Below, in pieces: positions 1,239 to 44,971 of a stretch of DNA of 64,000 nt. Source of the DNA: Mycobacterium sp. Z3061. Its GTDB lineage: Bacteria > Actinomycetota > Actinomycetes > Mycobacteriales > Mycobacteriaceae. Location of the stretch: the NCBI RefSeq assembly GCF_031583025.1, contig NZ_CP134062.1:5863234-5927233 (forward strand), written 5' to 3'. The translations under genes were made by a program, and so were the position numbers. Position 1 is the stretch's first letter, and every line of letters starts with the position of its first letter. The notes under the pieces were generated by a model, which searched no databases, was not told the DNA's origin, and was given only the letters and a program-made list of their open reading frames with translations.

Positions 1239-1253
1239 GATAATTTCATTCTC
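1239..1253. promoter_or_regulatory. Operator-like palindrome, regulon A copy 1 (one mismatch)
   Basis: GATAAT-TTC-ATTCTC, one base off the consensus GAGAAT-N3-ATTCTC seen repeatedly in this window. It lies about 34 bp upstream of the aldehyde dehydrogenase start. A longer TGAGAA-N10-TTCTCA dyad follows at 1282-1303. Confidence 0.6.
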
Positions 1254-1414
1254 ATCTCCGGCGAATCTTACATTCGGGACGTGAGAAGACAAGCGAGTTC
1301 TCATCCCTGATTGCGCAGGTCACGGGCTGAGCGACCGCTCAGCGACCTCCCGTTCTGGCAGCTTGCCGCAGGCCCGGGGCGGTTTCTCGCCTCTCTTGCG
1401 GGCCGCTTCAGCCT

Positions 1415-1429
1415 GAGAGTACGATTCTC
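1415..1429. promoter_or_regulatory. Operator-like palindrome, regulon A copy 2 (one mismatch)
   Basis: GAGAGT-ACG-ATTCTC with flanking T/A that extends the dyad to 17 bp. It lies 58 bp upstream of the SDR start at 1487, on the far side of the divergent promoter region from copy 1. This suggests one operator for each direction. Confidence 0.65.
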
Positions 1430-1486
1430 ATAATTGCGAGGGAGATTCTTTGTGTATGAGATCGACAACCTGACGACTCGGAGTCG

Positions 1487-2194
1487 GTGACCGTGAGAAC
1501 TGCGGTGGTCACCGGCGGCGGGTCCGGCATCGGCCTGGCGGTTGCGCAACGCCTCCGGGCGGACGGGCGCGCGGTCGCGACCATAGACCTCAAGTCATCC
1601 GATGACGACCTCTGCTACACCGCGGATGTCACCGACCGCTCGCAGATCGACGCGGCGCTGTCGGCAATCCGGGACCGCCTGGGACCCGTCACGATTCTGG
1701 TCAACGCGGCCGGACTGGACGGCTTCAAGCGGTTCACCAACATCACGTTCGAGGATTGGCAGCGGGTGATCGACGTCAATCTGCACGGCGTGTTCCACAT
1801 GATCCAGGCGGTGTTGCCCGACATGTTGGACGCGGGTTGGGGACGCATCGTGAACATCTCCTCGTCGAGCACGCATTCCGGCGTTCCGTACATGTCGCAC
1901 TACGTGGCCGCCAAGTCCGCCGTCAACGGACTGACGAAGTCCCTGGCACTCGAGTACGGGCCGAGCGGCATCACGGTCAACGCCGTACCCCCCGGCTTCA
2001 TCGACACCCCGATGTTGCGCAATGCCGAGAACCAGGGGTTCCTGGGTGATGTCGAACAGAACATCGCCCGCACACCGGTGCGCCGCATCGGCAAGCCCGA
2101 GGACATCGCCGCGGCGTGTGCCTTCCTGTCTTCGGAGGAGGCCGGCTACATCACCGGTCAGATACTGGGTGTCAACGGCGGTCGGAACACCTGA
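1487..2194 (+). CDS. Short-chain dehydrogenase/reductase (SDR)
   Basis: Classical SDR of about 235 residues that would interconvert an alcohol and a ketone with NAD(P)(H). Visible motifs are the TGGGSGIG cofactor loop near residue 10, the NAAG motif, catalytic Ser in NISSSS, and YVAAK (Tyr/Lys). The C-terminal GQILGVNGG is typical of the fold. GTG at 1487 gives the longest reading, but GTG at 1493 lies 9 nt after GGAG and is equally likely. It is the first gene of an SDR-ferredoxin-P450 operon, so it may oxidise the alcohol the P450 makes (inferred from context). A regulon A palindrome lies in its promoter. Confidence 0.9.
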   Translation: MTVRTAVVTGGGSGIGLAVAQRLRADGRAVATIDLKSSDDDLCYTADVTDRSQIDAALSAIRDRLGPVTILVNAAGLDGFKRFTNITFEDWQRVIDVNLHGVFHMIQAVLPDMLDAGWGRIVNISSSSTHSGVPYMSHYVAAKSAVNGLTKSLALEYGPSGITVNAVPPGFIDTPMLRNAENQGFLGDVEQNIARTPVRRIGKPEDIAAACAFLSSEEAGYITGQILGVNGGRNT

Positions 2195-2208
2195 GCGCGG
2201 GAGGTTTC

Positions 2209-2403
2209 GTGAAGGTCTGGGTTGATCCGGAACGCTGCCAGGGGCACACCTTGTGTGCGATGATCGCACCGGATTCGTTCCAGCTCAGCGACATTGACGG
2301 TAGTTCGTCGGCGATCAACGAGGTGGTGCCGGAGGATCAGGTCGATCAGGTTCGCGAGGCCGCGCAGTCCTGCCCCGAGCAGGCCATCATTCTACGCGAT
2401 TGA
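2209..2403 (+). CDS. [3Fe-4S] ferredoxin (P450 partner type)
   Basis: 64-residue ferredoxin starting at GTG 2209, preceded by GGGAGG at good spacing. The cluster motif is C-QGHTL-C with a later SCPEQAI, giving the three-cysteine pattern C-x5-C...C-P of mycobacterial P450 ferredoxins. The variable middle residue is His. It lies directly before a P450 gene, so it most likely delivers electrons to that enzyme. Four other ferredoxins in this window carry Phe, Asn, His and Ser at this position. Confidence 0.92.
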   Translation: MKVWVDPERCQGHTLCAMIAPDSFQLSDIDGSSSAINEVVPEDQVDQVREAAQSCPEQAIILRD

Positions 2404-2423
2404 ACACCAAGGGAGACAACGCA

Positions 2424-3785: not shown

Positions 3786-3786
3786 C

Positions 3787-3846
3787 GCGAGCAGACACAA
3801 AATCGCACTAAATCGCATGCGATTGTGCGAGTTTGTGTCTGCTCGC
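3787..3846. terminator. Hairpin family 1, copy 1 (bidirectional terminator)
   Basis: Long inverted repeat with 15-bp perfect arms (3787-3801 and 3832-3846, GCGAGCAGACACAAA) and a smaller palindrome inside. It lies exactly between the stop codons of the convergent P450 and ACAD genes. Three relatives occur at 27.6, 48.05 and 48.93 kb. Confidence 0.8.
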
Positions 3847-3854
3847 GGGGGAAC

Positions 3855-6012: not shown

Positions 6013-6042
6013 CCGGGCCGCCTCCCGTCACGAGTACCTGGC

Positions 6043-6057
6043 GAGAATAACATTCTC
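6043..6057. promoter_or_regulatory. Operator-like palindrome, regulon A copy 3 (perfect)
   Basis: GAGAAT-AAC-ATTCTC, perfect arms. It lies between the divergent ACAD pair and the SnoaL-epimerase-SDR operon. A weaker second box (minus strand GAGATT-N3-ACTTCC) lies at 6064-6078, centre-to-centre 21 bp away. The same pairing with identical weak-box arms occurs at 44102-44138. Confidence 0.8.
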
Positions 6058-12574: not shown

Positions 12575-12589
12575 GAGAATGTTATTATC
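12575..12589. promoter_or_regulatory. Operator-like palindrome, regulon A copy 4 (one mismatch)
   Basis: GAGAAT-GTT-ATTATC, one base off consensus. Read on the other strand it has the same off-base as copy 1. It lies 85-99 bp before the amidohydrolase at 12674, in the promoter of the operon that follows. Confidence 0.65.
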
Positions 12590-12673
12590 CGGTTTTAAGA
12601 ACAATACTCGCATATTGGGTCGTAAAAGCGCTGTTACCAGGACATATGCAGTGACGGCGGGAGGATGGACTAC

Positions 12674-13771
12674 ATGATCGAACACGCCGATGGGACGCGT
12701 ACGCCGGTCATCGACGCCAGCGTTCACATCTTCTTCCCGACCAACAAGGACCTGCGCAGCTTCCTACGTGAGCCGTTCAAGAGCCGCGGCTTCCCCGATT
12801 ACGAGATGGACTGGTACGGCGCACCCGGCAGCGAGTACGCGCCGAATACCGAAGGACCTGAGCGCGGCCGCCGCTATCCCGGGTCGGACCCGGATTTCGT
12901 TGCCAATGAGCTGTTTTCGAATCGGGGGGTGGATGTGGCGATCCTGCACCCGATGGGGCGAGGGATCATGCCGGACCGCCACCTGGGCACCGCACTGCAC
13001 GCCGCACACAACGAGATGATGGTGTCGCGTTGGCTCGAGCACGCCGAGTTCGGTGACCGCTTCCGTGGCACCATCCGGGTGAACCCCGACGACATCGCCG
13101 GCGCGGTGCGCGAACTGGAGAAATGGCGGGGGCATCCGCGGGTGGTGCAGATCGGCGTCCCACTGCAGTCGCGCGAGGTCTACGGCAAACCGCAGTTCTG
13201 GCCGTTGTGGGAAGCGGCGGCGGAGGCGAACCTTCCGGTGGCCGTGCACATCGAGTCGGGCGAGGGCATCGGGTTCCCGCCGACGCCTTCCGGACATACC
13301 CGCACCTACGAGCAATACGTCAGCTTCATGGCGCTGAACTACCTGTATCACCTGATGAACATGATCGCCGAGGGCGTGTTCGAGCGCTTTCCGGCCCTCA
13401 AATTCGTATTCGCGGACGGCGCGGGAGATTTCGTCACGCCGTTCATCTGGCGGATGGATACGTTCGGCCGCCCGCATCTCGAGCAGACACCGTGGGCGCC
13501 GCGGATACCGAGTGACTACCTGCCGGGCCACGTGTACTTCGTCCAGGGCGCCATGGACGGACCGGGTGACGTCGACTTCGCCGGGGATTGGCTGCGGTTC
13601 ACCGGCAAGGACGACATGGTGATGTTCGGCTCCAGCTATCCGCACTGGCAATGCGGCGACATCACCAAATTGCCCCAGGCACTTTCGGCCGAGCAGCACG
13701 AGAAGTTGTGCTGGCGCAACGCGGCCGAGCTCTACGGCATAGACATCGCCGTCGGCTCGGGCGCACAGTAG
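12674..13771 (+). CDS. Amidohydrolase_2 family protein, metal site altered
   Basis: 365-residue TIM-barrel protein of the ACMSD-like amidohydrolase family. The first metal motif reads DASVH instead of DxHxH, and the usual SDYPH near the end reads SSYPH (Asp lost), while VAVHIESG keeps its His. It may therefore bind metal poorly or work differently. The next gene is a relative that keeps SDYPH, so the two may form a hetero-oligomer (inference). ATG at 12674 is preferred because GGGAGG directly abuts an earlier in-frame ATG at 12665. A regulon A box lies upstream. Confidence 0.85.
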   Translation: MIEHADGTRTPVIDASVHIFFPTNKDLRSFLREPFKSRGFPDYEMDWYGAPGSEYAPNTEGPERGRRYPGSDPDFVANELFSNRGVDVAILHPMGRGIMPDRHLGTALHAAHNEMMVSRWLEHAEFGDRFRGTIRVNPDDIAGAVRELEKWRGHPRVVQIGVPLQSREVYGKPQFWPLWEAAAEANLPVAVHIESGEGIGFPPTPSGHTRTYEQYVSFMALNYLYHLMNMIAEGVFERFPALKFVFADGAGDFVTPFIWRMDTFGRPHLEQTPWAPRIPSDYLPGHVYFVQGAMDGPGDVDFAGDWLRFTGKDDMVMFGSSYPHWQCGDITKLPQALSAEQHEKLCWRNAAELYGIDIAVGSGAQ

Positions 13772-13797
13772 AAGTGAGTGAGAGCTAGGAGATCGCA

Positions 13798-14943
13798 ATG
13801 TCGCTGACTCACATACACGAACGGGTTCCCGCCGCCGAGCGCATCGCCGTCCGGTGCGTCGACTCCGACGTCCACCCGGTGCCCAAACGCGGTGAAATCA
13901 CCCAGTACATCCCCGAGCCGTGGCGCAGCAAGTTCTTCCTCGACCACAAGGTCGGCGAGTTGATCTACTACGACGCACCCGACTACGCGCACTCCTTCGC
14001 GATGCGGGTCGACACCTTCCCGCCCGACGGCGAATTCCCGGGCAGCGACCCGGACATGGCGTTTCGGCAGCTGATCATGGAAGCCGGTTCCGATATCGCG
14101 ATCCTGGAGCCGGGTGGGCGCACCCCGCGGCTACCCGAAGCTCACCAGGCCTACTCGACGGCCCTGAACCACTGGCAGGCCAACCACTGGCTGGACGGCC
14201 ACAACAACTGGCATCAGCGCTGGCGTGGGTCGATCTGCGCGGCCGTCGAAGACCCCGCGGGTGCGGCCCGTGAGATCGAGGAGTGGGCCGGTCATCCGTA
14301 CATGGCGCAGATTCTGATCAAGGCCGAACCGCGTCCGTCATGGGGACATCCCATGTACAACCCGATCTGGGAGGCGGCCACCAAGCACGACATCACGGTG
14401 AGCTGTCACCTGTCCCGCAGCAACTACGAGATGCTGCCGACGCCGCCCGTCGGGTTCCCCAGTTACAACCACGACTTCATGGTCACCTACTCGCTGCTGG
14501 CCGCCAACCAGGTGATGAGCCTGATCTTCGACGGCGTCTTCGACCGGTTCCCAACGCTGCGCATCGTGTTCGTCGAACACGCCTTCACCTGGATCCTGCC
14601 GCTGATGTGGCGGATGGACTCGATCTACGAGGCCCGCAAGTCGCGTGTCGACATCAAGCGCAAGCCGTCGGACTACGTCAAGGACCACATCAAGTTCACC
14701 ACCCAGCCGCTGGACTATCCCGAGGACAAGACGGAGTTGACCCGGATGTTGGAGTGGATGGAATGCGAGAAGATCCTGTTGTTCTCCTCGGACTACCCGC
14801 ACTGGACCTTCGACGATCCGCGCTGGCTGGTCAAGCATCTGCCCAAGGGTGCCCGGGACGCGGTGATGTACAAGAACGGCATCGCCACCTACCACCTCCC
14901 GGAGACCGTCCCGGTGCTCGAGGGTCAGGTCCGGGTGCTCTGA
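13798..14943 (+). CDS. Amidohydrolase_2 family protein
   Basis: 381-residue metal-dependent hydrolase/decarboxylase fold. It starts with RCVDSDVHPVP (DxDxH), has a TVSCHLSRSN strand, a VFVEHAFTWI motif and the C-terminal FSSDYPHWTFDDP with catalytic Asp. The family includes decarboxylases such as ACMSD and gamma-resorcylate decarboxylase, and hydrolases; substrate unknown. ATG at 13798 follows GGAG. The stop TGA is followed at once by the ATG of the Rieske gene. Confidence 0.88.
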   Translation: MSLTHIHERVPAAERIAVRCVDSDVHPVPKRGEITQYIPEPWRSKFFLDHKVGELIYYDAPDYAHSFAMRVDTFPPDGEFPGSDPDMAFRQLIMEAGSDIAILEPGGRTPRLPEAHQAYSTALNHWQANHWLDGHNNWHQRWRGSICAAVEDPAGAAREIEEWAGHPYMAQILIKAEPRPSWGHPMYNPIWEAATKHDITVSCHLSRSNYEMLPTPPVGFPSYNHDFMVTYSLLAANQVMSLIFDGVFDRFPTLRIVFVEHAFTWILPLMWRMDSIYEARKSRVDIKRKPSDYVKDHIKFTTQPLDYPEDKTELTRMLEWMECEKILLFSSDYPHWTFDDPRWLVKHLPKGARDAVMYKNGIATYHLPETVPVLEGQVRVL

Positions 14944-15336
14944 ATGCTCGAGGAGAAGCCGCGACCCCGCCTGGCTCAGGGTCGCGAACACGTCGTCGCG
15001 ACGGTGGACGAAATTCCCCCGGGCACACACAAATTGGTGCCGATCGGGCGGCACGGGGTGGGCGTGTACAACGTGCACGGCACCTTCTACGCGATCGCGA
15101 ATTATTGCCCGCACCAAGGTGGTCCGCTGTGCTCGGGACGGGCCCGCGGACGCACCGTCGTCGACGAGACGGCCGCCGGTGACGCGGTGATGGTGCGCGA
15201 CCTGGAATATATCTACTGCCCTTGGCATCAGTGGGGTTTCGAGCTGGCGACGGGTACCACCGCGGTCAAGCCGGAGTGGAGCATCCGCACCTACCCGGTC
15301 CGGGTCATCGGCAACGACGTATTGGTGCAGGCGTGA
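14944..15336 (+). CDS. Rieske-type [2Fe-2S] ferredoxin
   Basis: 130-residue protein with a single Rieske domain: C55-P-H57 (YCPHQGGPLC) and C92-PW-H95 (YCPWHQWGF). There is no catalytic oxygenase domain, so it would act as a soluble electron carrier for a Rieske oxygenase or another enzyme of the operon. It starts directly after the amidohydrolase stop and its own stop overlaps the next GTG, so translation is tightly coupled. The Rieske oxygenase at 29841 is a possible distant client. Confidence 0.9.
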   Translation: MLEEKPRPRLAQGREHVVATVDEIPPGTHKLVPIGRHGVGVYNVHGTFYAIANYCPHQGGPLCSGRARGRTVVDETAAGDAVMVRDLEYIYCPWHQWGFELATGTTAVKPEWSIRTYPVRVIGNDVLVQA

Positions 15337-16214
15337 CGCGGCCGGGTGTGTCGTCGCTCGAGATCAATGGCGGCAACGTCGTCTACGAGATGCTGGGTGA
15401 GGCAGGCGATCTCATCGCCCTGACGCCCGGTGGCCGGTTCAGCAAGGACATCGAGGGGTTGCGTCCGCTGGCTGAGGCGCTGGTCGACGGCGGCTACCGT
15501 GTGCTGTTGTGGGACCGCCCCAACTGTGGCGCCTCCGATGTGCAGTTCTACGGCCAGAGCGAATCGCACATGCGCGCCGAAACCCTGCACAAGCTGGTGA
15601 CAGGTCTGGGTTTCCAGCAGTGCATCCTGGCCGGAGGCTCCGGCGGCGCAAGGGATTCCATGCTCACCACGATGCTCTACCCGGAAATGGTCACCAAGCT
15701 GGTGGTGTGGAACATCGTCGGCGGCATCTACGGCACGTTCGTGCTGGGTAGCTTCTATATCGTCCCAAGCATTCTCGCGGTGCGGGGCACCGGGATGGAC
15801 GGCGTGATCAAGGTGTCGGAGTGGCGCGATCGCATCGCCGAGAACCCCGCCAACAAGCAGCGGTTCCTCGACTTCGACTCCGCCGATTTCCTCAAAGTGA
15901 TGCTGCGCTGGCTCAATGCGTTCGTCTCCAAACCGGGACAGACCATTCCGGGCGTCGAGGACGAAATGTTCGACCGCATCAGGGTTCCCACGCTGATCAT
16001 CCGAGGCGGCGAGAACGACATGGATCACCCGAAGCGCACCTCGCTGGAAGTGCATTGCCTGATCAAAGGTTCGGAGCTGATCGACCCACCGTGGCCGGAG
16101 GACGCCTGGGAACGGGCGTCCGAAGACCGCGCGGCGGGCCGGGTGACTCACTTCAACATGTTCGACACCTGGGTACAGGCCGCGCCCGCGATCCTCGAGT
16201 TCCTGGATCGCTGA
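15333..16214 (+). CDS. Alpha/beta-fold hydrolase
   Basis: 293-residue alpha/beta hydrolase. The nucleophile elbow is AGGSGGARDS (Ser), RGGENDMDHP supplies the acid residue and a His near the end (RVTHFNMF) could complete the triad. LLWDRPNCGASD is the usual strand before the oxyanion loop. GTG at 15333 overlaps the Rieske stop (GTGA). In the operon it could hydrolyse an ester, thioester or C-C bond; the family alone does not decide. Confidence 0.87.
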   Translation: MTRPGVSSLEINGGNVVYEMLGEAGDLIALTPGGRFSKDIEGLRPLAEALVDGGYRVLLWDRPNCGASDVQFYGQSESHMRAETLHKLVTGLGFQQCILAGGSGGARDSMLTTMLYPEMVTKLVVWNIVGGIYGTFVLGSFYIVPSILAVRGTGMDGVIKVSEWRDRIAENPANKQRFLDFDSADFLKVMLRWLNAFVSKPGQTIPGVEDEMFDRIRVPTLIIRGGENDMDHPKRTSLEVHCLIKGSELIDPPWPEDAWERASEDRAAGRVTHFNMFDTWVQAAPAILEFLDR

Positions 16215-23920: not shown

Positions 23921-23935
23921 GAGAATATGCCTCTC
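23921..23935. promoter_or_regulatory. Operator-like palindrome, regulon A copy 5 (two mismatches)
   Basis: GAGAAT-ATG-CCTCTC: perfect left arm, two bases off in the right arm. It lies 17 bp upstream of the P450 start. A weaker box GAGTAT-TAC-ATTTCC lies at 23942-23956, centre 21 bp away, the same spacing seen near 6.05 and 44.1 kb. Confidence 0.5.
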
Positions 23936-26349: not shown

Positions 26350-26372
26350 GCTTCACTCCGCCTTTCAGTCGC

Positions 26373-26427
26373 CGAACGTGCACTCACGGCGGAAAAACGC
26401 GAAAAACTCGCCATCACTTCACGTTCG
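26373..26427. repeat. Hairpin family 2, copy 2
   Basis: CGAACGTG (26373-26380) pairs with CACGTTCG (26420-26427), with partial pairing inside. It lies between the ACAD stop and the thiolase start on the same strand, so it would reduce read-through within an operon or end it. Confidence 0.6.
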
Positions 26428-26443
26428 ATGGCTACAAATTACG

Positions 26444-27610: not shown

Positions 27611-27628
27611 TGCCGCACCTTTCCTTGC

Positions 27629-27688
27629 GCGAGCAGCCGCAAACTCGCACGATCTGGGTCCAGATGATGCGAGTTCGCGTCTGCTCGC
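27629..27688. terminator. Hairpin family 1, copy 2
   Basis: Arms GCGAGCAGCCGCAAACTCGCA (start 27629) and its near-complement ending at 27688, with an inner ATCTGG/CCAGAT stem. It lies between the amidohydrolase stop and the ACAD start, both on the minus strand. Confidence 0.7.
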
Positions 27689-27698
27689 CGGTAGAACC

Positions 27699-28997
27699 TC
27701 AGTCCGTGTTGCCGCTGAGCGACTTCGCATTAGCCGCAAAGTCGGCGAAAGACGAACCACCACGGGTGTCCTTTGCGTGGCCCGCCGCCTTGATGGACAC
27801 GTCGTGGCCCTCGGCCGCTGCGCGCAACGCACCGACGGTCGCCTGCTCCGGCGTGATGTGCGTAAACGGGTCGAACGAGTACCAGCGCATGGCGTTCTCG
27901 TACGTCATCTTCTTGATCTCGTCGTCGGGGACATTGTTGATCGACAACACGTCCCACAACTCTTCGGGCGCTCCCGGCCACATCGAGTCGCTGTGCGGGT
28001 AGTCAGCCTCCCAGCAGATGTTGTCGATGCCGATCATGTTGCGCAGCGCGACGCCGACCTTGTCGCTGATGAAGCAGGTCAGGAAGTGCTCACGGAAGAC
28101 CTCGCTGGGCAGCTTGCCCTTGAAGTCCTGGTGCGTCCAGCTCGAGTGCATCTCATAGGTACGGTCCGCGCGCTCCAGGAAGTAAGGAATCCATCCGGTG
28201 CCACCTTCGGACAGCGCGACCTTGAGGTCCGGGTACTCCTTGATGGGCCGAGACCACAGCAGGTCAGCGGCCGCCTGCACGATGTTCATCGGCTGCAGCG
28301 TGATCATCACGTCCATCGGGGCGTCGGGCGCGGTGATCGCCAGCCGGCCCGAGGACCCGATGTGCACATTCATGACGGTGTCGGTGTCGCACAACGCCTT
28401 CCACAACGGGTTCCAGTATTCGTTGTGGAAGCTGGGGTAACCCATCGCGGCCGGGTTCTCGGTGAAGGTGAGCGCGTGTACGCCCTTCTTGGCGACCCGG
28501 CGCACCTCGGCGGCGCACGCCTCGGCGTCCCAGATCACCGGAATCGCCATCGGGATGAACCGCGCCGGGTAGGCACCGCACCATTCCTCGATGTGCCAGT
28601 CGTTGTAGGCCTGCACCAGTGCGATCGAGAATTCCGGATCGTCGGTGGCGAACAGCCGTCCGGCGAAACCCGGGAAAGACGGAAAACAGATCGAGGCCAG
28701 GATCCCGCCGGCATTCATGTCCTTGATGCGCTCGTCGACGTTGTAACAGCCGGGCCGGATCTCGTCCAGGCCGGTGGGCTCGATCCCGTACTCCTCCTTG
28801 GGCCGGCCGGCCACCGCGTTGAGCGCCACGTTCGGAATGACGGTGTCGCGGAACTTCCACATGTCCGAGCCGTCGGGGTTGTGCACCAGGCGAGGCGCGT
28901 CGTCCAGGTACTTCGACGGTAGGTGGTTCTTGAACATGTTCGGCGGCTCGACGGTGTGGTCGTCCACGCTGATCAGGATCATGTCTTCTTTGTTCAC
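27699..28997 (-). CDS. Amidohydrolase_2 family protein
   Basis: 432-residue metal-dependent hydrolase fold. The N-terminal VDDHTVEPPNMF (DxHxxE), NVHIGSSG, LSEGGTGWIPY and WEADYPHSDSMWP (metal Asp in ADYPH) are all present, so it looks active. GTG at 28997 follows GAGAAGGGA. The family has hydrolases and decarboxylases. It is divergent from the Rieske oxygenase operon across a 304-bp promoter region holding a perfect regulon A box. Confidence 0.88.
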   Translation of the reverse strand: MNKEDMILISVDDHTVEPPNMFKNHLPSKYLDDAPRLVHNPDGSDMWKFRDTVIPNVALNAVAGRPKEEYGIEPTGLDEIRPGCYNVDERIKDMNAGGILASICFPSFPGFAGRLFATDDPEFSIALVQAYNDWHIEEWCGAYPARFIPMAIPVIWDAEACAAEVRRVAKKGVHALTFTENPAAMGYPSFHNEYWNPLWKALCDTDTVMNVHIGSSGRLAITAPDAPMDVMITLQPMNIVQAAADLLWSRPIKEYPDLKVALSEGGTGWIPYFLERADRTYEMHSSWTHQDFKGKLPSEVFREHFLTCFISDKVGVALRNMIGIDNICWEADYPHSDSMWPGAPEELWDVLSINNVPDDEIKKMTYENAMRWYSFDPFTHITPEQATVGALRAAAEGHDVSIKAAGHAKDTRGGSSFADFAANAKSLSGNTD

Positions 28998-29249: not shown

Positions 29250-29264
29250 GAGAATATGATTCTC
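29250..29264. promoter_or_regulatory. Operator-like palindrome, regulon A copy 6 (perfect)
   Basis: GAGAAT-ATG-ATTCTC, perfect arms, 38 bp before the CMD-family ATG at 29302. It would control the Rieske oxygenase operon and perhaps the divergent amidohydrolase. Confidence 0.8.
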
Positions 29265-29301: not shown

Positions 29302-29838
29302 ATGCGTTTACCGCCGCTGCCCGCTGACCAGTGGGACGAGGCTGTCGAAGGCGCGCTGGCCGTCATGCTGCCCCCGGAGCGCCGCAATCCGCGTGACGCC
29401 TCCAACGTGTTGTCGACCCTGGTCAACCACCCGGTCCTGACCAAGGCGTTCCTCAAGTTCAACGTCCACCTCTTGTTTTCATCTACCTTGCCGCCCCGAA
29501 TCCGCGAGCTCGCCATCCTGCGGGTCGCGCACCGTCGTGAGTGCGCCTACGAGTGGACTCATCATGTCGACCTCGCCAAGCGCGAGGGCATCACCGACGC
29601 CGAGATCGACGCGGTCCGCCGGGGCGACGGCGGGTTCGACGAGTTCGAGCAGGCGGTGATCACCGGCGTCGACGAACTCGACGAGAAATCCCAACTGTCC
29701 GACGAAACCTGGGCCATGCTCGGCACCCGCTTCGACGACCGGCAACGCATGGACTACGTCTTCACCGTCGGCTCCTACACCATGCTGGCCATGGCGCTCA
29801 ACACTTTTGGCGTTCAGCTCGAACACGAGGAGAGGTAA
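29302..29838 (+). CDS. Carboxymuconolactone decarboxylase (AhpD-like) family protein
   Basis: 178-residue CMD-fold protein. The family active-site segment reads E80-C-A-Y-E84-W-T-H87-H88, preceded by LPPRIRELAILRVA. It has only one Cys in that motif, so AhpD peroxidase CxxC chemistry is not expected. Members next to oxygenases may remove CO2 or act on lactones, but assignment is uncertain. ATG at 29302 follows GAGAGGG. It is the first gene of the Rieske oxygenase operon. Confidence 0.87.
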   Translation: MRLPPLPADQWDEAVEGALAVMLPPERRNPRDASNVLSTLVNHPVLTKAFLKFNVHLLFSSTLPPRIRELAILRVAHRRECAYEWTHHVDLAKREGITDAEIDAVRRGDGGFDEFEQAVITGVDELDEKSQLSDETWAMLGTRFDDRQRMDYVFTVGSYTMLAMALNTFGVQLEHEER

Positions 29839-29840
29839 CA

Positions 29841-31136
29841 GTGGCCCACTTCCCCAAACCAGCCGCCGGAAGCTGGACGCAGAACTATCCGGAACTGGGG
29901 ACCGCACCCGTCGACTACAGCGACTCGATCGATCCTGCGTTCTTCGAAGCCGAGCGCGACGCGGTCTTCAAGCGCACCTGGCTCAACGTGGGTCGCGTCG
30001 AGCGACTGCCACGTACCGGCAGCTATTTCACCAAGGAGCTGCCGTCGGCCGGCAGGGGCATGTCGGTGATCATCGTCAAGACCAAGGACGGATCCGTCAA
30101 GGCGTTCCACAACGTCTGCCGGCACCGTGGAAACAAGCTGGTGTGGAACGATTTTCCGAACGAGGAAACGTCCGGCACCTGCCGGCAGTTCACCTGCAAG
30201 TACCACGCCTGGCGGTACAGCCTGGACGGTGACCTGACCTTCGTCCAACAGGAGGACGAGTTCTTCGACCTCGACAAGAGCGATTACGGCCTGGTGCCGG
30301 TGCGCTGCGAGGTGTGGGAAGGCTTCATCTTCATCAACTTCGACCAGAACGCACAGCCGCTGGTGGACTATCTGGGTCCGATGGGCAAGGGCATCGAGGG
30401 CTACCCCTTCCACGAGATGACCGAAACCTATTCCTACCGAGCCGAAGTCGGCAGCAACTGGAAGCTGTTCATCGACGCGTTCGCCGAGTTCTACCACGCT
30501 CCGGTGCTGCATCAGGGGCAGTACACCAAGGAAGAAGCCGCCAAGATCATGAAGTACGGCTTCGAGGCGCTGCACTACGAGCTGGCCAGCCCGCACGGAA
30601 TGATCTCGACCTGGGGCGGCCAGGCCCCGCCGGTGGACATGAGCATGGTCAAGCCGATGGACCAGGTCCTGCGCAGCGGACTGTTCGGCCCCTGGGACAA
30701 GCCGGAAGTCATTGCCAACCTCGACGCGCTGCCGCCGGGTGTGAATCCGAAGAAGGTCAAGCAGTGGGGCATCGACTCCTGGCACTTCTACCCGAACTTC
30801 ATGCTGCTGATCTGGGAGCCGGGCTGGTTCCTGACCTACCACTACTGGCCGACCGCCGTCGACAAGCACATCTTCGAGTGCACGCTGTATTTCGTGCCGC
30901 CGCGAAATGCCCGGGAGCGCCTGGCCCACGAGTTGGCCGCGGTGACGTTCAAGGAGTACGCGCTGCAGGACGCGAACACGCTGGAGGCGACGCAGACCAT
31001 GATCGGCACCCGGGTGGTCAACGACTTCCCGTTGTGCGACCAGGAGATCCTGCTCCGCCATCTGCACAAGGTGACCGGCGACTACGTTGCCGACTTCGCG
31101 AAGGAGAGCCGCAGCAATGGCAAAGTTACCGTCTGA
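29841..31136 (+). CDS. Rieske non-haem iron oxygenase, alpha subunit
   Basis: 431-residue oxygenase. The Rieske domain has C93-R-H95 and C119-KY-H122. The catalytic domain has the mononuclear iron motif with Asp212, His219 and His224 (DAFAEFYHAPVLH). It would hydroxylate an aromatic ring or a C-H bond with O2 and electrons from a reductase/ferredoxin, neither of which is adjacent. GTG at 29841 follows GAGAGG, 2 bp after the CMD stop. Its last 20 bp overlap the following small gene, which may be a partner subunit. Confidence 0.92.
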   Translation: MAHFPKPAAGSWTQNYPELGTAPVDYSDSIDPAFFEAERDAVFKRTWLNVGRVERLPRTGSYFTKELPSAGRGMSVIIVKTKDGSVKAFHNVCRHRGNKLVWNDFPNEETSGTCRQFTCKYHAWRYSLDGDLTFVQQEDEFFDLDKSDYGLVPVRCEVWEGFIFINFDQNAQPLVDYLGPMGKGIEGYPFHEMTETYSYRAEVGSNWKLFIDAFAEFYHAPVLHQGQYTKEEAAKIMKYGFEALHYELASPHGMISTWGGQAPPVDMSMVKPMDQVLRSGLFGPWDKPEVIANLDALPPGVNPKKVKQWGIDSWHFYPNFMLLIWEPGWFLTYHYWPTAVDKHIFECTLYFVPPRNARERLAHELAAVTFKEYALQDANTLEATQTMIGTRVVNDFPLCDQEILLRHLHKVTGDYVADFAKESRSNGKVTV

Positions 31137-31443
31137 ATTCGCCGACCTGGAAACGTATCTGGACTGGGACCTGGCGTCGGAACCCGAGCGTTACGCCAAG
31201 CGCCTGGCCTCCACCATGGGTCAGATGCAGGAGTTCTACGACGCCGCCTTCCCGCGCCTGAACGACGTCATCGCCTACTGTGACAAGTACCCGCTGGACG
31301 ATCTTCCCGAGGACGCACGCACGCTCATGCACCTGATGCAGTCGCTGGTGATGGTCTCGTTTCCGATCGAGGCGTGGAAGCAGCCCCGGGTTCCCGACAG
31401 CGGCGCGGCGTGGGTGGAGTGCATCAGGGAACCGGTGATCTGA
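31117..31443 (+). CDS. Small hypothetical protein linked to the Rieske oxygenase
   Basis: 108 residues, MAKLPSEFADLETYLDWDLAS...CIREPVI, mostly helical, with Trp/Tyr-rich N-terminus and no export signal. I do not recognise a family; it is not the SnoaL-like beta subunit of ring-hydroxylating dioxygenases. It overlaps the oxygenase gene by 20 bp with GGAG upstream, so co-translation is likely. It could be an accessory or structural partner. Confidence 0.78.
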   Translation: MAKLPSEFADLETYLDWDLASEPERYAKRLASTMGQMQEFYDAAFPRLNDVIAYCDKYPLDDLPEDARTLMHLMQSLVMVSFPIEAWKQPRVPDSGAAWVECIREPVI

Positions 31444-31446
31444 AGC

Positions 31447-32661
31447 GTGTTGACGCTCAAGGCAGCTGGGCTACTCGATGTCGACGCCGGCGAGATCGTC
31501 TCGCCGGGCATCGTCCGGATCGACGGCGACCGCATCGTCGGTATCGGAGGTGAGCCCGAGGGCGACCTGATCGATCTCGGGGATCAGATTCTGTTGCCCG
31601 GGTTGATGGACATGGAGGTCAACCTGCTGATGGGCGGCCGGGGCGAGAAGCCTGGCCTGTCCCAGGTACAGGACGACCCACCGACCCGGGTGCTGCGCGC
31701 CGTCGGTAATGCCCGGCGCACCCTGCGTGCCGGGTTCACCACCGTGCGCAACCTGGGCCTGTTCGTCAAGACCGGCGGCTACCTGCTCGACGTCGCGCTC
31801 GGCAGGGCGATCGACGCGGGGTGGATCGACGGGCCCCGCATAGTGCCTGCCGGACATGCGATTACGCCTACCGGCGGGCATCTGGACCCGACGATGTTCG
31901 CGGCGTTCGCCCCGCACGTGCTGGACCTCACGATCGAGGAGGGTATCGCCAACGGCGTCGACGAGATCCGCCGCGCGGTGCGCTACCAGATCAAGCACGG
32001 CGCCCAGCTGATCAAGGTGTGCTGCTCCGGCGGCGTGATGTCGCTGACCGGACCGCCTGGCGCCCAGCATTATTCGGACGACGAGCTGCGCGCCATCGTC
32101 GACGAGGCACACCGGCGGGGGCTGCGGGTCGCCGCGCACACGCACGGCGCCGATGCGGTCAAGCACGCGGTGGCGGCCGGCATCGACTGCATCGAGCACG
32201 GATTCCTCGTCGACGACGAGGCCATTGCCCTGATGGTCGAGAACGGCACTTTCCTGGTGAGCACCCGCCGGCTGGCCGAGGGCATGGACGTGTCCCATGC
32301 GCCGCCCGAACTTCAGGCCAAGGCCGCCGAGATGTTCCCCAAGTCGCGCACCTCGATCCTGGCGGCGTACCAGGCCGGGGTGAAGATCGCCGTCGGCACC
32401 GACGCGCCGGCAATACCGCACGGCCGCAACGCCGATGAACTCGTCACCCTGGTCGAGTGGGGATTGCCGCCGCTGGCCGTATTGCGCGGGGCGACCGTGA
32501 CGGCCGCGGAGCTGATCAACTCGACCGACCTCGGGCGCCTGGCCGAGGGCATGCTTGCCGACGTTATCGCGGTGCCCGGAAATCCGTTGGCGGACATCAC
32601 CGTTACCCGCAACGTGAGCTTTGTCATGAAAGGCGGCAAGGTTTATGCCAAGCAGAACTGA
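31447..32661 (+). CDS. Amidohydrolase_1 family protein lacking the HxH metal motif
   Basis: 404-residue protein with the imidazolonepropionase/prolidase-like amidohydrolase layout: an N-terminal beta sandwich, TIM barrel and C-terminal return (LADVIAVPGNPLADI). The barrel's first motif, normally DxHxH, reads LPGLMDMEVNLL, with Glu and Asn replacing both His. The likely carboxylated Lys (LIKVCCSGG), AAHTHGADA, IEHGF and GTDAPAIPHG remain. It may bind a single metal or be inactive. GTG at 31447; the stop overlaps the next gene by 17 bp. Confidence 0.85.
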   Translation: MLTLKAAGLLDVDAGEIVSPGIVRIDGDRIVGIGGEPEGDLIDLGDQILLPGLMDMEVNLLMGGRGEKPGLSQVQDDPPTRVLRAVGNARRTLRAGFTTVRNLGLFVKTGGYLLDVALGRAIDAGWIDGPRIVPAGHAITPTGGHLDPTMFAAFAPHVLDLTIEEGIANGVDEIRRAVRYQIKHGAQLIKVCCSGGVMSLTGPPGAQHYSDDELRAIVDEAHRRGLRVAAHTHGADAVKHAVAAGIDCIEHGFLVDDEAIALMVENGTFLVSTRRLAEGMDVSHAPPELQAKAAEMFPKSRTSILAAYQAGVKIAVGTDAPAIPHGRNADELVTLVEWGLPPLAVLRGATVTAAELINSTDLGRLAEGMLADVIAVPGNPLADITVTRNVSFVMKGGKVYAKQN

Positions 32662-33067
32662 CGACCTGGTGGAGATCCAGCAGTTGCTCGCCCGGTATGC
32701 CGTCACCATCACCCAGGGCGACATCGAGGGACTGGTCGGCGTGTTCACACCGGACGGCACCTACAGCGCATTCGGCGACACCTACACACTGGACCGGTTC
32801 CCGGAACTGGTCGCCGCCGCGCCGAAGGGCCTGTTCATGACCGGCACCTCGCTGGTCGAAAATCTCGACGGCGATACGGCCACCGGCACCCAACCGCTGT
32901 GCTTCATCGAACACTCCGCGCATGACATGCGCATCGGCTACTACCGCGACACCTACCTGCGCACCGCCGACGGCTGGCGCCTGAAAACCCGCGCCATGAC
33001 CTTCATCCGGCGCAGCGGCGTGCATGACTCCGGACGGCCGCATGCCGTGGGCCGCCCAACGCCGTGA
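32645..33067 (+). CDS. SnoaL/NTF2-like protein
   Basis: 140-residue SnoaL-like protein: LVEIQQLLARYAVTITQGDIEGLVGVFTPDG followed by alternating strands and RTADGWRLKTRAMTFIRR. This fold includes beta subunits of ring-hydroxylating dioxygenases, ketosteroid isomerases and cyclases. Given the Rieske alpha subunit four genes upstream, a role as isomerase or loose subunit is possible but not shown. ATG at 32645 overlaps the amidohydrolase; its stop overlaps the ACAD start (GTGA). Confidence 0.84.
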   Translation: MPSRTDDLVEIQQLLARYAVTITQGDIEGLVGVFTPDGTYSAFGDTYTLDRFPELVAAAPKGLFMTGTSLVENLDGDTATGTQPLCFIEHSAHDMRIGYYRDTYLRTADGWRLKTRAMTFIRRSGVHDSGRPHAVGRPTP

Positions 33068-34152
33068 ATGTCGAGGAGTTCCGGACCGGGTTGTGCGCGT
33101 GGCTCGACGAGCATGACCTGACCCCGGGGCCCGACCATTCGCTGCAGGGCCACATGCGGCAGTTCGCCCGGGTCAGCGCGGCGCTGTACGAGGCGGACTG
33201 GATGCGTTACGGCTGGCCGGAGTCGGTCGGCGGGCTGGGCGGGCCGGCGCTGTTGCGCGCGATCGTCGGCGAGGAGGTGGTGGGCCGGCGGCTGGCCGAA
33301 CCCGGCCCCTACTCGATGCTGGAGGTACTCGCGCCCACCATGATCGATTACGCGCCAATCGAACTCGCCGCCGAGATGGTGCCGCGGCTGCTCAGCGGAC
33401 GAGAGCAGTGGTGCCAGGGTTTCTCCGAACCTGGATCCGGCAGCGATCTGGCATCCTTGACGACCCGGGCGGTCCCCGACGGTGACAACTGGATCGTCAA
33501 CGGGCAGAAGGTCTGGACCAGCTTCGCGCAGTTCTCCACCCGGTGCGTGCTGCTCACCCGTACCGCGCCGGGCCATGACGGCATCACCGCTTTTTTCGTC
33601 GACCTGGACACGCCGGGCATCACGGTCCGCCCGTTGCGCACCATGCACGGCGTCGACGAGTTCTGCGAGGTGTACTACGACGATGTGGTGATCCCGTCCA
33701 GCCGGATGCTCGGCAAGCCCGGAGACGGCTGGCGACTCGCGATGGATCTGTTGCCCTATGAGCGGTCGACCTGTTTCTGGCAGCGAATCGCCTACCTGTA
33801 CTCGAGGTTCGACGCCCTGGTCGCCGAGGCGGCCGAAGCGGACGAATCTGCATTGGGCGCAGCCTATCTCGCGCTGCATACGCTGCGCTGCCGATCCCGC
33901 GCCACCCAGCACCGGCTGGCTGACGGAGCGCGACTCGGACCCGACACCTCCATCGACAAGGTGCTGCTGGCCGGGGCCGAACAACGGCTCTACGACACCG
34001 TCCGCGACCTGCTGCCCGGCACGCTGGAATTGGACGACACCGCCTGGCGGCCGGAGTACCTCTACTCGCGCGCGGCGACCATCTATGGCGGGACAGCCGA
34101 GATCCAGCGCAACATCATCGCCCGTCGGCTGCTCGACCTCGGGAAGGAGTGA
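33064..34152 (+). CDS. Acyl-CoA dehydrogenase, alpha-type subunit
   Basis: 362-residue ACAD with GFSEPGSGSDLASLTTRAV, NGQKVWTSFAQ and the C-terminal TIYGGTAEIQRNIIARRLLDLG. GTG at 33064 overlaps the SnoaL stop. It lies 1 bp before a short second ACAD, giving the same alpha-beta arrangement as at 3855-6012 but with gene order reversed. Likely an alpha2beta2 FadE enzyme on an unusual acyl-CoA (family knowledge plus context). Confidence 0.91.
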   Translation: MNVEEFRTGLCAWLDEHDLTPGPDHSLQGHMRQFARVSAALYEADWMRYGWPESVGGLGGPALLRAIVGEEVVGRRLAEPGPYSMLEVLAPTMIDYAPIELAAEMVPRLLSGREQWCQGFSEPGSGSDLASLTTRAVPDGDNWIVNGQKVWTSFAQFSTRCVLLTRTAPGHDGITAFFVDLDTPGITVRPLRTMHGVDEFCEVYYDDVVIPSSRMLGKPGDGWRLAMDLLPYERSTCFWQRIAYLYSRFDALVAEAAEADESALGAAYLALHTLRCRSRATQHRLADGARLGPDTSIDKVLLAGAEQRLYDTVRDLLPGTLELDDTAWRPEYLYSRAATIYGGTAEIQRNIIARRLLDLGKE

Positions 34153-34153
34153 C

Positions 34154-34933
34154 GTGGACACCGAGCTGGCGCTGCTGGCCGAATCTTTGCGGACGGCGAT
34201 GACGACGTCGCCGTCCGGCGCCGCCCTGGACGCTGCCCTGGCCGAGCTCGGCTGGCTCGACATGCTCGATGAAATGCCGGAAACCGCAATACCTCTGGTC
34301 TTCCGATTGCTCGGCGAGACCGGTGCGCATGCGCCCGTGCTGAATGACGTCGTGCTGCGAGGCACCGGTGACACGGTGCCGCTGCCCTACGCCGGCGGTT
34401 CCTGGGTGGTCTGGGAGCGTGCCGACACCGCGACTCCGGCGATGGACGAGGAGCTGCCCTTGCACCGGGTGCCCACCGGGGACACCGTCCCGCTGGGTGC
34501 GGCCCGGCAGGCGGTGGGGTGGTGGCTCGTCGGCGCCAGCCGGGCCATGCTGGCGCTGGCTCGCAGCCACGCACTGGACCGAGTCCAATTCGGCCGCTCC
34601 ATCGCATCTTTCCAGGCGGTGCGCCACCGACTCGCCGAGACGCTGGTCGCCATCGAGGGCGCCGAGGCCACTTTGCGGGCCGCCGCCGATCAGCCGGACG
34701 AGTTCGCGTGTCTACTGGCTAAGGCGGCGGCGGGCCAGGCGGCGCTGACCGCCGCCCGGCACTGCCAGCAGGTACTCGGGGGCATCGGCTTCACCGCCGA
34801 GCATCAGTTGCACCGCCACGTCAAGCGGGTATTGGTGCTCGACGGGTTGCTCGGCAGCTCGAAGGAGCTGACCCGCGAAGCGGGAGCGCACGTCCGTGCC
34901 GTGGGCTCGGCACCCCGGCTCGTCCATCTCTAG
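34154..34933 (+). CDS. Acyl-CoA dehydrogenase, short beta-type subunit
   Basis: 259 residues, about 70 shorter than the beta subunit at 5014-6012. The flavin/substrate-facing C-terminal half is present (RVQFGRSIASFQAVRH, LGGIGFTAEHQLHRHVKR), but the N-terminal helical domain is much reduced and the middle beta domain short. GTG at 34154 follows GGAAGGAG. It ends the Rieske oxygenase operon and should pair with the preceding ACAD. Confidence 0.86.
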   Translation: MDTELALLAESLRTAMTTSPSGAALDAALAELGWLDMLDEMPETAIPLVFRLLGETGAHAPVLNDVVLRGTGDTVPLPYAGGSWVVWERADTATPAMDEELPLHRVPTGDTVPLGAARQAVGWWLVGASRAMLALARSHALDRVQFGRSIASFQAVRHRLAETLVAIEGAEATLRAAADQPDEFACLLAKAAAGQAALTAARHCQQVLGGIGFTAEHQLHRHVKRVLVLDGLLGSSKELTREAGAHVRAVGSAPRLVHL

Positions 34934-42809: not shown

Positions 42810-42852
42810 TCGCCGGCCCTGGTTCGCGGCTGCGAAACTCGTTCTTTCGGGA

Positions 42853-44028
42853 TCAGTTTCGCGGCATCCCGAGCACCCGCTCGGCGATGATGTTGCGCTG
42901 GATCTCCGACGTGCCGCCGGCGATGGTGCCGGCGAAGCTGCGGGCGTACCTGTCGAACCAGCTGCCGTAGTGGGCGTCCAGGTTCAGCGGGGCGAACGGC
43001 GCGGTGATCGCCGGATGGATCAGACCCTCGGGACCCTTGGCGTTCAGGGCATCTTCGGAGGCGCGCTGGACCGCCTCGGAGCCGAGCAGCTTCAGCACCG
43101 ACTGGCCGGGCACATCCTCCTCACCGCGCGCGGCCTTGGCCAAAGTCACCGAACCGAGCAGCCGCATCGCCCAGGCATCCATCACCAGGGTGGCGTAGCG
43201 ATCCCGTTCCAACGTTCCGGTCGGCGTGAAATCGGTTGTCTGCTGGTCCAATAGATTCGCGTAGTCCAGCCACAGCATGGCGCGCTCGTGCCCGAGCGCG
43301 CCGGTCGCCACGCGCCAGCCACCGTCGAGCTCGCCGACCAGATTCTCGGCGGGCACCCGGGCGTCGGTGAAGAACACCTCGTTGAATTCGACGTCGTCGT
43401 GATCACACACGGAGGCGAACGGCCGTCGCACCACACCCGGAGTGTCCGTCGGAATCAGCAATACACTGATTCCCTTGTGTTTTGGGACGTCGGGGTTGGT
43501 GCGCACGAAGGTCAGCAGCACGTCGGCGTCGTGTGCACCCGAGGTCCACACCTTCTGGCCGTTCACCACGAAGTCGTCGCCATCCCGCACCGCCCGCGTC
43601 TTCAGAGAGGCCAGATCCGAACCGGCACCGGGTTCACTCATCCCCAGCGACGCGGTGATCTCCGCGCGCAGGATTCGCACCGCCCACTGCTGCTTCTGCT
43701 CGGGGGTCCCGAACGACAGCAGGGACGCCGCGATGATCCCGACGCCCTGCGGGTTGAAACTGCGGTAGATGCGTCGCCGCGCCATCTCGTCCGCATGCAC
43801 ATACTGCTGCAACAACGTTGCGTTGCGTCCGCCGAATTCGGGTGTGTTGCCCGGTAGCAGCCAGCCGTTGTCGAACAGCAGTCGCTGCCAGCGAGCCGCC
43901 CACTCCGGCACATGGGAGCACGAACTCGGCCGCACCACGCCTTGGGCCTCGTCCGGCAGGTGCTCGTCGAGAAAAGCGACGAATTCCGACCGGAATGCCT
44001 CGACGTCGGCATCAAAAGTCAGCTGCAC
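42853..44028 (-). CDS. Acyl-CoA dehydrogenase, alpha-type subunit (paralogue)
   Basis: 391-residue ACAD, same length as the alpha subunit at 3855-5030 and very similar along its length: QLTFDADVEAFRSEF, MSEPGAGSDLASLKTRAV, NGQKVWTSGAHDADVLL and GGTSEIQRNIIAERVLGMP. GTG at 44028 after GAGGAG matches the paralogue's start. No beta subunit is adjacent, so it may share the one at 5014 or act alone. The promoter also copies that of the paralogue, with a perfect regulon A box and a weaker second box. Confidence 0.92.
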   Translation of the reverse strand: MQLTFDADVEAFRSEFVAFLDEHLPDEAQGVVRPSSCSHVPEWAARWQRLLFDNGWLLPGNTPEFGGRNATLLQQYVHADEMARRRIYRSFNPQGVGIIAASLLSFGTPEQKQQWAVRILRAEITASLGMSEPGAGSDLASLKTRAVRDGDDFVVNGQKVWTSGAHDADVLLTFVRTNPDVPKHKGISVLLIPTDTPGVVRRPFASVCDHDDVEFNEVFFTDARVPAENLVGELDGGWRVATGALGHERAMLWLDYANLLDQQTTDFTPTGTLERDRYATLVMDAWAMRLLGSVTLAKAARGEEDVPGQSVLKLLGSEAVQRASEDALNAKGPEGLIHPAITAPFAPLNLDAHYGSWFDRYARSFAGTIAGGTSEIQRNIIAERVLGMPRN

Positions 44029-44101
44029 CAAATCTCCTCGGGGCCTCGCGCGGCTTCCGGGTGTGCACTCTCGTGAATGTGCTTCCCAAACACCCGTGCA
44101 A

Positions 44102-44116
44102 GAGAATAGTATTCTC
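44102..44116. promoter_or_regulatory. Operator-like palindrome, regulon A copy 7 (perfect)
   Basis: GAGAAT-AGT-ATTCTC, perfect arms, between the ACAD (minus) and the TetR gene (plus). A second box at 44124-44138 reads GAGATT-N3-ACTTCC on the minus strand, the same arms as at 6064-6078. Confidence 0.82.
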
Positions 44117-44172
44117 GTCGTGAGGAAGTTACAATCTCCAAGACATCGTCCGTGAGGAGGTCGAGCGCAGCG

Positions 44173-44892
44173 ATGGCCCGACGTTCTCCGGTACAGTCCA
44201 ACCATGTTCTCTCCTCGCGGCAATCTCCCGAGCCGCCCGTGACCAGCCCGGGCGAAGAGCCGGCTTGGAAACAGCGGGCCGTCGAGCGATCCATCAAAAC
44301 CGCCAAATTGCGGGCGGCGCAACGCGTCCAGCGCTTCCTCGATGCCGCCCAGGCCATCATCATCGAGAAGGGCAGCACGGACTTCACCGTGCAGGAGGTC
44401 GTTGACCGCTCCCGTCAGTCGTTGCGCAGCTTCTACCTGCAGTTCGACGGCAAACACGAGTTGCTGCTGGCCCTGTTCGAGGACGCGCTGAGCCGGTCGG
44501 CTGACCAGATCAGGGCCGCGACCGAAAGCCACACCGACGCGCTGGAACGGCTCAAGGTGGCGGTGGAGCTTCTCTACGAGGCCTCCCGACCGGACCCGAC
44601 GGCTAAGCGGCCACTGTTCACCGACTTTGCGCCACGGTTGCTCGTCACCCATCCCGCTGAGGTCAAGGTAGCCCACGCGCCGCTGCTGGCTTTGCTCACG
44701 GAACTGATGGAAGCTGCCTGTGAGGCTGGCAAGCTGCGTGCCGGCGTCAACCCGAAGCGGATGGCCGCCATGACCATGCAGACAGTGATGTTCATTGCCC
44801 AGTCCAGCGGCGGTTCCGACGACGCGACGGTCCATCCGATCAGCGCCGACGAGGTGTGGGACTTCTGCTCACGAGGATTCGCCGGCAGCTAA
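44173..44892 (+). CDS. TetR family regulator, candidate regulon A repressor
   Basis: 239-residue TetR protein. The DNA-binding region is RVQRFLDAAQAIIIEKGSTD followed by FTVQEVVDRSRQSLRSFYLQ and FDGKHELLLALFEDAL, then a helical sensor domain. About 45 residues precede the helix-turn-helix. ATG at 44173 follows AGGAGG; GTG 44152 is an alternative. It is flanked by perfect GAGAAT-N3-ATTCTC palindromes at 44102 and 44957, which makes it the best candidate for the protein that binds them all. The inducer is unknown, perhaps an acyl-CoA. Confidence 0.9.
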   Translation: MARRSPVQSNHVLSSRQSPEPPVTSPGEEPAWKQRAVERSIKTAKLRAAQRVQRFLDAAQAIIIEKGSTDFTVQEVVDRSRQSLRSFYLQFDGKHELLLALFEDALSRSADQIRAATESHTDALERLKVAVELLYEASRPDPTAKRPLFTDFAPRLLVTHPAEVKVAHAPLLALLTELMEAACEAGKLRAGVNPKRMAAMTMQTVMFIAQSSGGSDDATVHPISADEVWDFCSRGFAGS

Positions 44893-44956
44893 CCTTCGGA
44901 CCGCTTTGCGGTCCACCTGTACCTGACGAGCGAATATCGCACTCTCACTCCTGATT

Positions 44957-44971
44957 GAGAATGTGATTCTC
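44957..44971. promoter_or_regulatory. Operator-like palindrome, regulon A copy 8 (perfect)
   Basis: GAGAAT-GTG-ATTCTC, perfect arms, between the TetR stop and the P450 start at 45112. A degenerate half-match lies at 44932-44946. It would control the P450-SDR-SDR operon. Confidence 0.82.

Follow-up and report, generated by a model that had tools for sequence, protein, structure and literature searches.

KstR and KstR2 are TetR repressors of mycobacterial sterol catabolism. The locus analysed here, a stretch of 64,000 nucleotides from Mycobacterium sp. Z3061 (contig NZ_CP134062.1, positions 5,863,234 to 5,927,233; hereafter the window), resembles the KstR and KstR2 systems, as it joins a TetR-family regulator and a short palindromic operator to operons of P450s, pairs of acyl-CoA dehydrogenases (ACADs) and CoA ligases, with a mce operon in reach. 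The element in question is the palindrome GAGAAT-N3-ATTCTC, present in eight copies, and the probable regulator is the product of a gene at 44173..44892, which we call TetR-1. Sequence comparison makes it very likely that GAGAAY-N3-RTTCTC is the operator of TetR-1, which would control its own promoter and 11 to 13 further catabolic operators by repression released by a small molecule of the pathway.

The likeness to the sterol systems does not extend to the operators. At a distance of up to about 60 bp from any of the eight sites, no match with at most one mismatch was found to the KstR motif TnnAACnnGTTnnA, in the form given by a preliminary description of this DNA, or to the KstR2 motif AnCAAGnnCTTGnT. 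This agrees with that description, which had held the palindrome to be distinct from both. TetR-1 was also rejected as a KstR protein, scoring 20.2 bits with the KstR model NF033703 (cut-off 280). One perfect KstR-type match, TnnAACnnGTTnnA, lies at window position 16152 inside the gene ending at 16214 and is probably due to chance.

A further comparison concerns Rv0767c, which we take from gene order to be the TetR protein of the CYP51 locus. In the present genome the TetR protein of this locus (CYP51 confirmed) shares only a 17-residue alignment with TetR-1, and the 12-kb CYP51 stretch has no GAGAAT site with at most one mismatch; its TetR junction carries TGGACATGTGTCCA, which fits the enrichment of Rv0767c sites in GAC/GTC given in the consulted part of PMC10312376. 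According to the consulted part of PMC6593523, a catabolic regulon defined by a palindrome, motif X, was predicted for the Rv0767c orthologue of Mycobacterium sp. VKM Ac-1817D, and motif X likewise lies upstream of P450, SDR and dehydrogenase operons. In spite of this shared setting, the comparison, made by regulator and locus, leaves identity of the two elements very improbable, and the palindrome is very probably not motif X.

The inner core of the palindrome is found in another TetR system. EefR, an autoregulated E. coli repressor that controls efflux pumps in enterobacteria, has the motif TGAGAAN5TTCTCA in the consulted part of PMC12482432, and the core GAGAA-N5-TTCTC recurs with equal spacing at the four perfect window sites; therefore, on the strength of that source, a TetR protein can read such a core. 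The two motifs differ in the outer T...A pair of EefR, as the left T occurs at two of the four perfect window sites and the right A at none. A literature search by motif string and keyword gave no apparent description of the present regulon among the matches listed, the motif string matching EefR alone.

The palindrome in the window

The eight copies, with the genes that they precede, are as follows.

1239..1253, GATAATTTCATTCTC, one mismatch, 33 bp upstream of the minus-strand aldehyde dehydrogenase-CaiB operon
1415..1429, GAGAGTACGATTCTC, one mismatch, 75 bp upstream of SDR-1
6043..6057, perfect, 30 bp upstream of the acyl-CoA dehydrogenase pair 6012-3855 (minus strand)
12575..12589, GAGAATGTTATTATC, one mismatch, 75 bp upstream of an amidohydrolase-amidohydrolase-Rieske domain-hydrolase operon
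23921..23935, GAGAGGCATATTCTC (read towards the gene), two mismatches, 16 bp upstream of the CYP150A6-like P450 (P450-3)
29250..29264, perfect, between amidohydrolase-ACAD-thiolase genes (minus strand) and CMD-Rieske oxygenase-amidohydrolase-SnoaL-ACAD pair genes (plus strand)
44102..44116, perfect, between an acyl-CoA dehydrogenase gene (minus strand) and the TetR-1 gene (plus strand), overlapping a predicted -35 element
44957..44971, perfect, upstream of P450-4 and a mycofactocin-coupled SDR, with TAAAAT 14 bp downstream

All positions and mismatch counts of the arms were verified in the sequence and agree with those first reported. The preliminary description had also considered four perfect copies to be beyond chance, and the counts bear this out: base composition predicts about 0.0005 perfect matches for the window, and with up to three mismatches allowed the window holds 21 matches, compared with 9.6 on average in shuffled sequences, none of 100 shuffles reaching 21. 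Among exact palindromes with 6-bp arms and spacings of 0 to 9, GAGAAT-N3 recurs most often in the window. The earlier assignment of every copy to the promoter of a P450, ACAD, amidohydrolase, Rieske oxygenase or SDR operon holds as far as catabolic operons are concerned; it has to be widened at 44102, which faces the TetR gene too, and at 1239, which faces the aldehyde dehydrogenase-CaiB operon.

The distribution outside the window was examined in a genus sample of 198 Mycobacterium genomes and a family sample of 121 genomes, seven being in both. The genus sample holds 1048 copies of the perfect palindrome, spread over 163 of its 198 genomes, while a reversed control was found once each in three genomes. 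The flanks of the sites diverge while the palindrome stays, and the spacer varies between sites. That the copies arose by chance, or belong to a repeat element that plays no part in regulation, is thus a practically negligible explanation, for which no supporting point was found.

TetR-1 and the proposed reading of the operator

Three TetR genes of the locus have to be considered as possible readers of the palindrome.

44173..44892, plus strand, TetR-1, TetR-family regulator (Pfam TetR_N PF00440, 31.6 bits, cut-off 24)
24488-25102, TetR-2, a further TetR gene, syntenic in the relatives examined
56372-57034, minus strand, TetR-3, a further TetR gene, occurring in other genera with few palindromes

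The start of TetR-1 was first called at 44239, and the ATG at 44173, preceded by GAGGAGG, is the likelier start; all 80 aligned sequences (window included, locus L127 left out) retain both codons. Read from 44239, the protein matches its counterpart in M. gordonae CTRI 14-8773 at 100% identity and that in DSM 44160 at 99%, placing the host in the M. gordonae group. An AlphaFold model of the 217-residue form has a mean pLDDT of 85.5 and an all-helical, two-domain TetR fold. The fold search with this model returned 242 PDB chains at E<=0.001, with EthR2, YvdT and FadR at the top among the best 50 of the 242. The modelled fold thus resembles EthR2 and the acyl-CoA-binding FadR-type TetR proteins at low identity, about 14-21% among the matches listed. 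By its TetR helix-turn-helix and its modelled fold TetR-1 is a TetR-family member, and operator binding and ligand release are predicted.

The operator is strongly conserved at the promoter of TetR-1 itself. A perfect copy lies 129-145 bp upstream of the equivalent of 44239 in 79 of 80 named loci, the exception being M. tilburgii (L127), and in the alignment of this junction, built from the window and 79 loci without L127, conservation is 0.99 over the 15 operator columns versus 0.76 in the remainder. The helix-turn-helix stretch is nearly constant among orthologues, and an orthologue with both an altered recognition helix and an altered operator was not found among the 15 diverged ones inspected (L207-L221). 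In G041, where TetR-1 is split over two contigs, a perfect operator stands upstream of the N-terminal piece (L227). In the other genera of the family the operator precedes TetR-1 in 14 of 17 genomes.

Sites and regulator also occur together across genomes. With presence of TetR-1 set at E<1e-50, 163 of the 198 genus genomes have the protein, and a perfect site is present in 160 of these 163 versus 3 of the 35 genomes without it, 32 having neither (Fisher p about 5e-30, which is only indicative as the species are related). TetR-1 was also found in 17 of the 114 sampled genomes of other genera, where sites were counted with the relaxed pattern GAGAAYNNNRTTCTC. The mean is 6.7 sites in genomes with TetR-1, 13 of the 17 having at least six, versus 1.0 in genomes without it, none of the 97 having at least six and the highest count being 5. 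A search of plasmids for TetR-1 gave one weak match, in Sphingobium.

A reading of the operator by TetR-2, alone or jointly with TetR-1, was weighed against these data. TetR-2 is syntenic and was detected in 19 of the 121 family genomes, including 12 of the 17 TetR-1 genomes outside the genus, and all four non-genus TetR-1 genomes with 1-3 sites lack it. Against its involvement, there is no palindrome with at most three mismatches directly upstream of TetR-2, the operator is conserved at the promoter of TetR-1, and G227, with no TetR-2 at E<1e-50, has seven sites and a perfect operator upstream of TetR-1. We consider a role of TetR-2 improbable. TetR-3 was rejected as the binder, since of the 19 non-genus genomes that encode it three have at least six sites and all three encode TetR-1 as well. 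The link to TetR-1, the protein that the preliminary description had singled out for a binding test, therefore has three supports: the co-occurrence, the operator conserved at the TetR-1 promoter and the fact that the two other TetR genes fit less well. Physical binding of TetR-1 to the palindrome is what we infer.

Besides the fact that TetR-2 occurs largely together with the sites, several observations weigh against the assignment to TetR-1. Three genus genomes have TetR-1 and no perfect site (G056, G178 and G089, the last with coordinates that agree with those of the M. tilburgii locus L127), although G056 and G178 carry a one-mismatch operator upstream of TetR-1. Perfect sites without TetR-1 were found in G148 (eight sites; a draft of 700 contigs with 7% contamination), G044 (one) and G070 (one), the last with an end fragment of TetR-1 at a contig edge. 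G026 and G063, with TetR-1 at 87 and 80% identity, show no operator with at most two mismatches in the 300 bp upstream of the gene and one perfect genome site each. Outside the genus, four of the 17 TetR-1 genomes have only 1, 3, 2 and 2 relaxed sites, and the operator is missing upstream of TetR-1 in G270, G285 and G291. In addition, an embedded -10 element (TATTCT) in the start-proximal operators was tested and received no support (p 0.44).

As for the mode of action, an invariant AGTTACAATCTC follows the operator at 44102, and its TACAAT (44130-44135, 13 bp downstream) fits a -10 element, so that the operator would cover the -35. Among 107 operator-gene pairs from eight related species, TANNNT lies 9-15 nt downstream of the operator in 23, against 53 of 1205 control positions; the operator is 20-39 bp from the called start in 39 pairs and within 60 bp in 50. 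At some promoters an additional, weaker copy lies at a distance of 21 bp, namely at that of P450-3, where a copy with three mismatches is found at 23942, farther out than the 23921 operator, and at that of TetR-1 in L209-L215, L217 and L218. Because the operators overlap the -35 or sit close to start codons, repression relieved by a ligand is the most likely mode. Some members of the TetR family activate transcription, and operators that stand over 150 bp away from the called start would be compatible with activation by TetR-1, or with both activation and repression; given the occlusion geometry of the other operators, we regard such a role as unlikely and infer repression.

In the mechanism that we propose, a TetR-1 dimer would occupy the operator of its own gene and 11 to 13 others upstream of catabolic operons, and would there block RNA polymerase. 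Release of TetR-1 would be brought about by a small pathway molecule, probably a CoA thioester, and would induce the import and degradation of a hydrophobic cyclic lipid.

The predicted regulon in the genome and in relatives

The whole genome (6.79 Mb, one contig) contains seven perfect and eight one-mismatch sites. Six of the seven perfect sites fall inside 145 kb, a clustering that none of 200,000 random placements of seven points attained. In the 184 kb around and including the window, of which 12% is intergenic by our own gene calls, all six perfect and three of the four one-mismatch sites are intergenic; the fourth falls at the 5' end of a gene as called, and this start call is probably too early. 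The members outside the window, in genome coordinates, are the following.

5842317, amidohydrolase-FadD-1, well supported
5981035, MeaB-like GTPase / hydrolase, well supported
5987525, FadD-2-ACAD pair-ECH / 2Fe-2S ferredoxin, well supported
6582722, phosphotransferase-SDR-ACAD / histidine phosphatase, well supported
4802979, 3-oxoacid CoA-transferase-carboxyltransferase, on gene layout alone
723201, flavin reductase, on gene layout alone; the site overlaps the end of the preceding gene

The predicted regulon thus comprises 12 well-supported operators, eight of them in the window, and two backed by gene layout. An even spread of the motif over the genome had been named beforehand as speaking against a regulon; the opposite was seen, as the sites cluster and precede catabolic genes here and in relatives. 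The idea of one catabolic regulon over 44 kb is accordingly supported as a prediction, with its extent understated, since the set reaches beyond 1239-44971.

Conservation of the target promoters was followed in genome stretches of seven relatives, where the window sites with one or two mismatches are kept at the matching promoters. At the position matching 1239, copies with one or two mismatches stand in G108, G195, G164, G034 and G090, and the SDR-1 promoter (site 1415) has GAGAGT-N3-RTTCTC 48-78 bp upstream in all six relatives where SDR-1 was found. Site 6043 has a perfect counterpart upstream of the equivalent gene in G108, G195, G164, G034, G090 and G157. The one-mismatch form at 12575 is identical in G108, G195 and G164; in G034, G090 and G157 the ACAD pair and the amidohydrolase operon have a single perfect site between them, and in the M. 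gordonae group extra genes separate the two, each side having its own site. The P450-3 promoter (site 23921) has GAGAGG-N3-ATTCTC at the equivalent place in G108, G195 and G164, a perfect copy in G157, and perfect or one-mismatch copies also in G090 and, 138 bp out, in G034.

The junction at 29250 keeps its site, with no or one mismatch, at the equivalent amidohydrolase/CMD-Rieske position in all seven relatives, and the TetR-1 promoter likewise has its operator in seven of seven. A copy of 44957 within one mismatch soon follows the TetR-1 gene in 70 of the 80 named loci; in G090 and G020 the 300 bp next to the P450-4-like genes (65 and 67% identity) contain no site. Outside the window, the operator of amidohydrolase-FadD-1 is 22-23 bp upstream of the called start in G108, G034, G090, G195 and G157, and that of the FadD-2/ferredoxin junction is present in six of seven relatives, the stretch of G164 ending short of it. 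Twenty further perfect sites from nine relatives were inspected: 13 lie upstream of an orthologue (at least 65% identity) of a listed target and two match 723201 and 4802979 by gene lengths, while the five with no assigned target count against the proposed regulon.

A further member is possible at 5949302, a two-mismatch site at a hydrolase / regulator junction, where GAGAAY-N3-ATTTCC is found in G108, G195, G164 and G034, while G090 has an ATTTAC variant and G020 a perfect site. The one-mismatch genome sites 3507798 and 4501947 are intragenic; they were taken as chance and rejected as members, and the same applies to the one-mismatch palindromes at position 6001 of L165 and at position 6001 of L164.

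Target genes and the putative pathway

Genes were called by codon usage with our own script in the window, then extended to 184 kb, and named from Pfam and NCBIfam. The Pfam scan covered 52 of the 57 called window genes, leaving out 17992-18288, 22144-22332, 34952-37708, 59395-60204 and 63177-63947, of which the first two were identified separately as ferredoxins. The genes facing the operators are these.

3..1205, minus strand, aldehyde dehydrogenase (Pfam Aldedh), running off the window; operator 1239
1493..2194, plus strand, SDR-1, followed by a ferredoxin (2215-2391) and P450-1 (2442-3785); operator 1415
3855-5030 and 5014-6012, minus strand, acyl-CoA dehydrogenase pair; operator 6043
12665..16214, plus strand, two amidohydrolases (PF04909), a 130-residue Rieske-domain protein and an alpha/beta hydrolase; operator 12575
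22618..23904, minus strand, P450-3, close to CYP150A6 (PDB 6dcd, 523 bits); operator 23921
25201..28997, minus strand, amidohydrolase, acyl-CoA dehydrogenase and thiolase; operator 29250, 252 bp upstream of the called start
29302..34933, plus strand, CMD protein, Rieske ring-hydroxylating oxygenase, a 108-residue protein with no family, amidohydrolase (PF01979), SnoaL-like protein and acyl-CoA dehydrogenase pair; operator 29250
42853..44028, minus strand, acyl-CoA dehydrogenase, divergent from TetR-1; operator 44102
45118..48018, plus strand, P450-4 (best solved match CYP130), mycofactocin-coupled SDR and SDR-2; operator 44957

Behind the aldehyde dehydrogenase-CaiB operon, 277 bp on and outside the window, stand genes resembling yrbE-yrbE and six mce genes (one YrbE and one Mce tested with profiles). 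This operon adjoins CaiB in G108, G195, G164, G034 and G090 and does not in G157. The yrbE/mce genes are in reach of the 1239 promoter and may share it.

CYP150 enzymes bind terpenoids. The CYP150A6-like P450-3, small ACAD subunits that match IpdE2 below the IpdE2 cut-off, and 3-oxosteroid-dehydrogenase-, MhpB-, HsaD-like and mutase genes suggest a cyclic terpenoid- or sterol-like lipid as the substrate, and a CoA thioester would be a plausible ligand of TetR-1. Most of the oxosteroid-dehydrogenase, dioxygenase, hydrolase and mutase genes have no site of their own. Tentatively, and with less than even confidence, we propose a third large lipid-catabolic regulon of the Mycobacteriaceae beside those of KstR and KstR2, with its own regulator and operator and probably its own Mce importer, serving a cyclic terpenoid-like lipid. 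P450s and heteromeric acyl-CoA dehydrogenases would take part, with oxosteroid-dehydrogenase-like and extradiol enzymes acting on the ring and a B12 mutase on a branched or quaternary carbon.

For a large block of little-understood P450, oxygenase and beta-oxidation genes, the prediction supplies a regulator, an exactly defined operator and a set of target promoters, and membership in the regulon tells which of many paralogues act together. Loss of the one regulator gene should turn the pathway on, which would help to find its substrate.

Some neighbouring genes were also recorded. Conserved in the locus (L158:16903-19544 and L159:1192-2836) are a 3-oxosteroid 1-dehydrogenase-like flavoprotein, an MhpB-type extradiol dioxygenase and a hydrolase with a sub-threshold HsaD match, divergent from a regulator resembling IclR by eye. 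L161:8589-10592 encodes a two-subunit B12-dependent acyl-CoA mutase nearest to 2-hydroxyisobutyryl-CoA mutase, and a nearby MeaB-like GTPase gene carries an operator. Five small ferredoxins (PF13459) are encoded at 2215-2391, 17998-18174, 22150-22326, 22442-22615 and 56190-56369; several adjoin P450 genes, as likely redox partners. Finally, a large LuxR-type regulator with an AAA domain is encoded on the plus strand at window positions 60389-63082.

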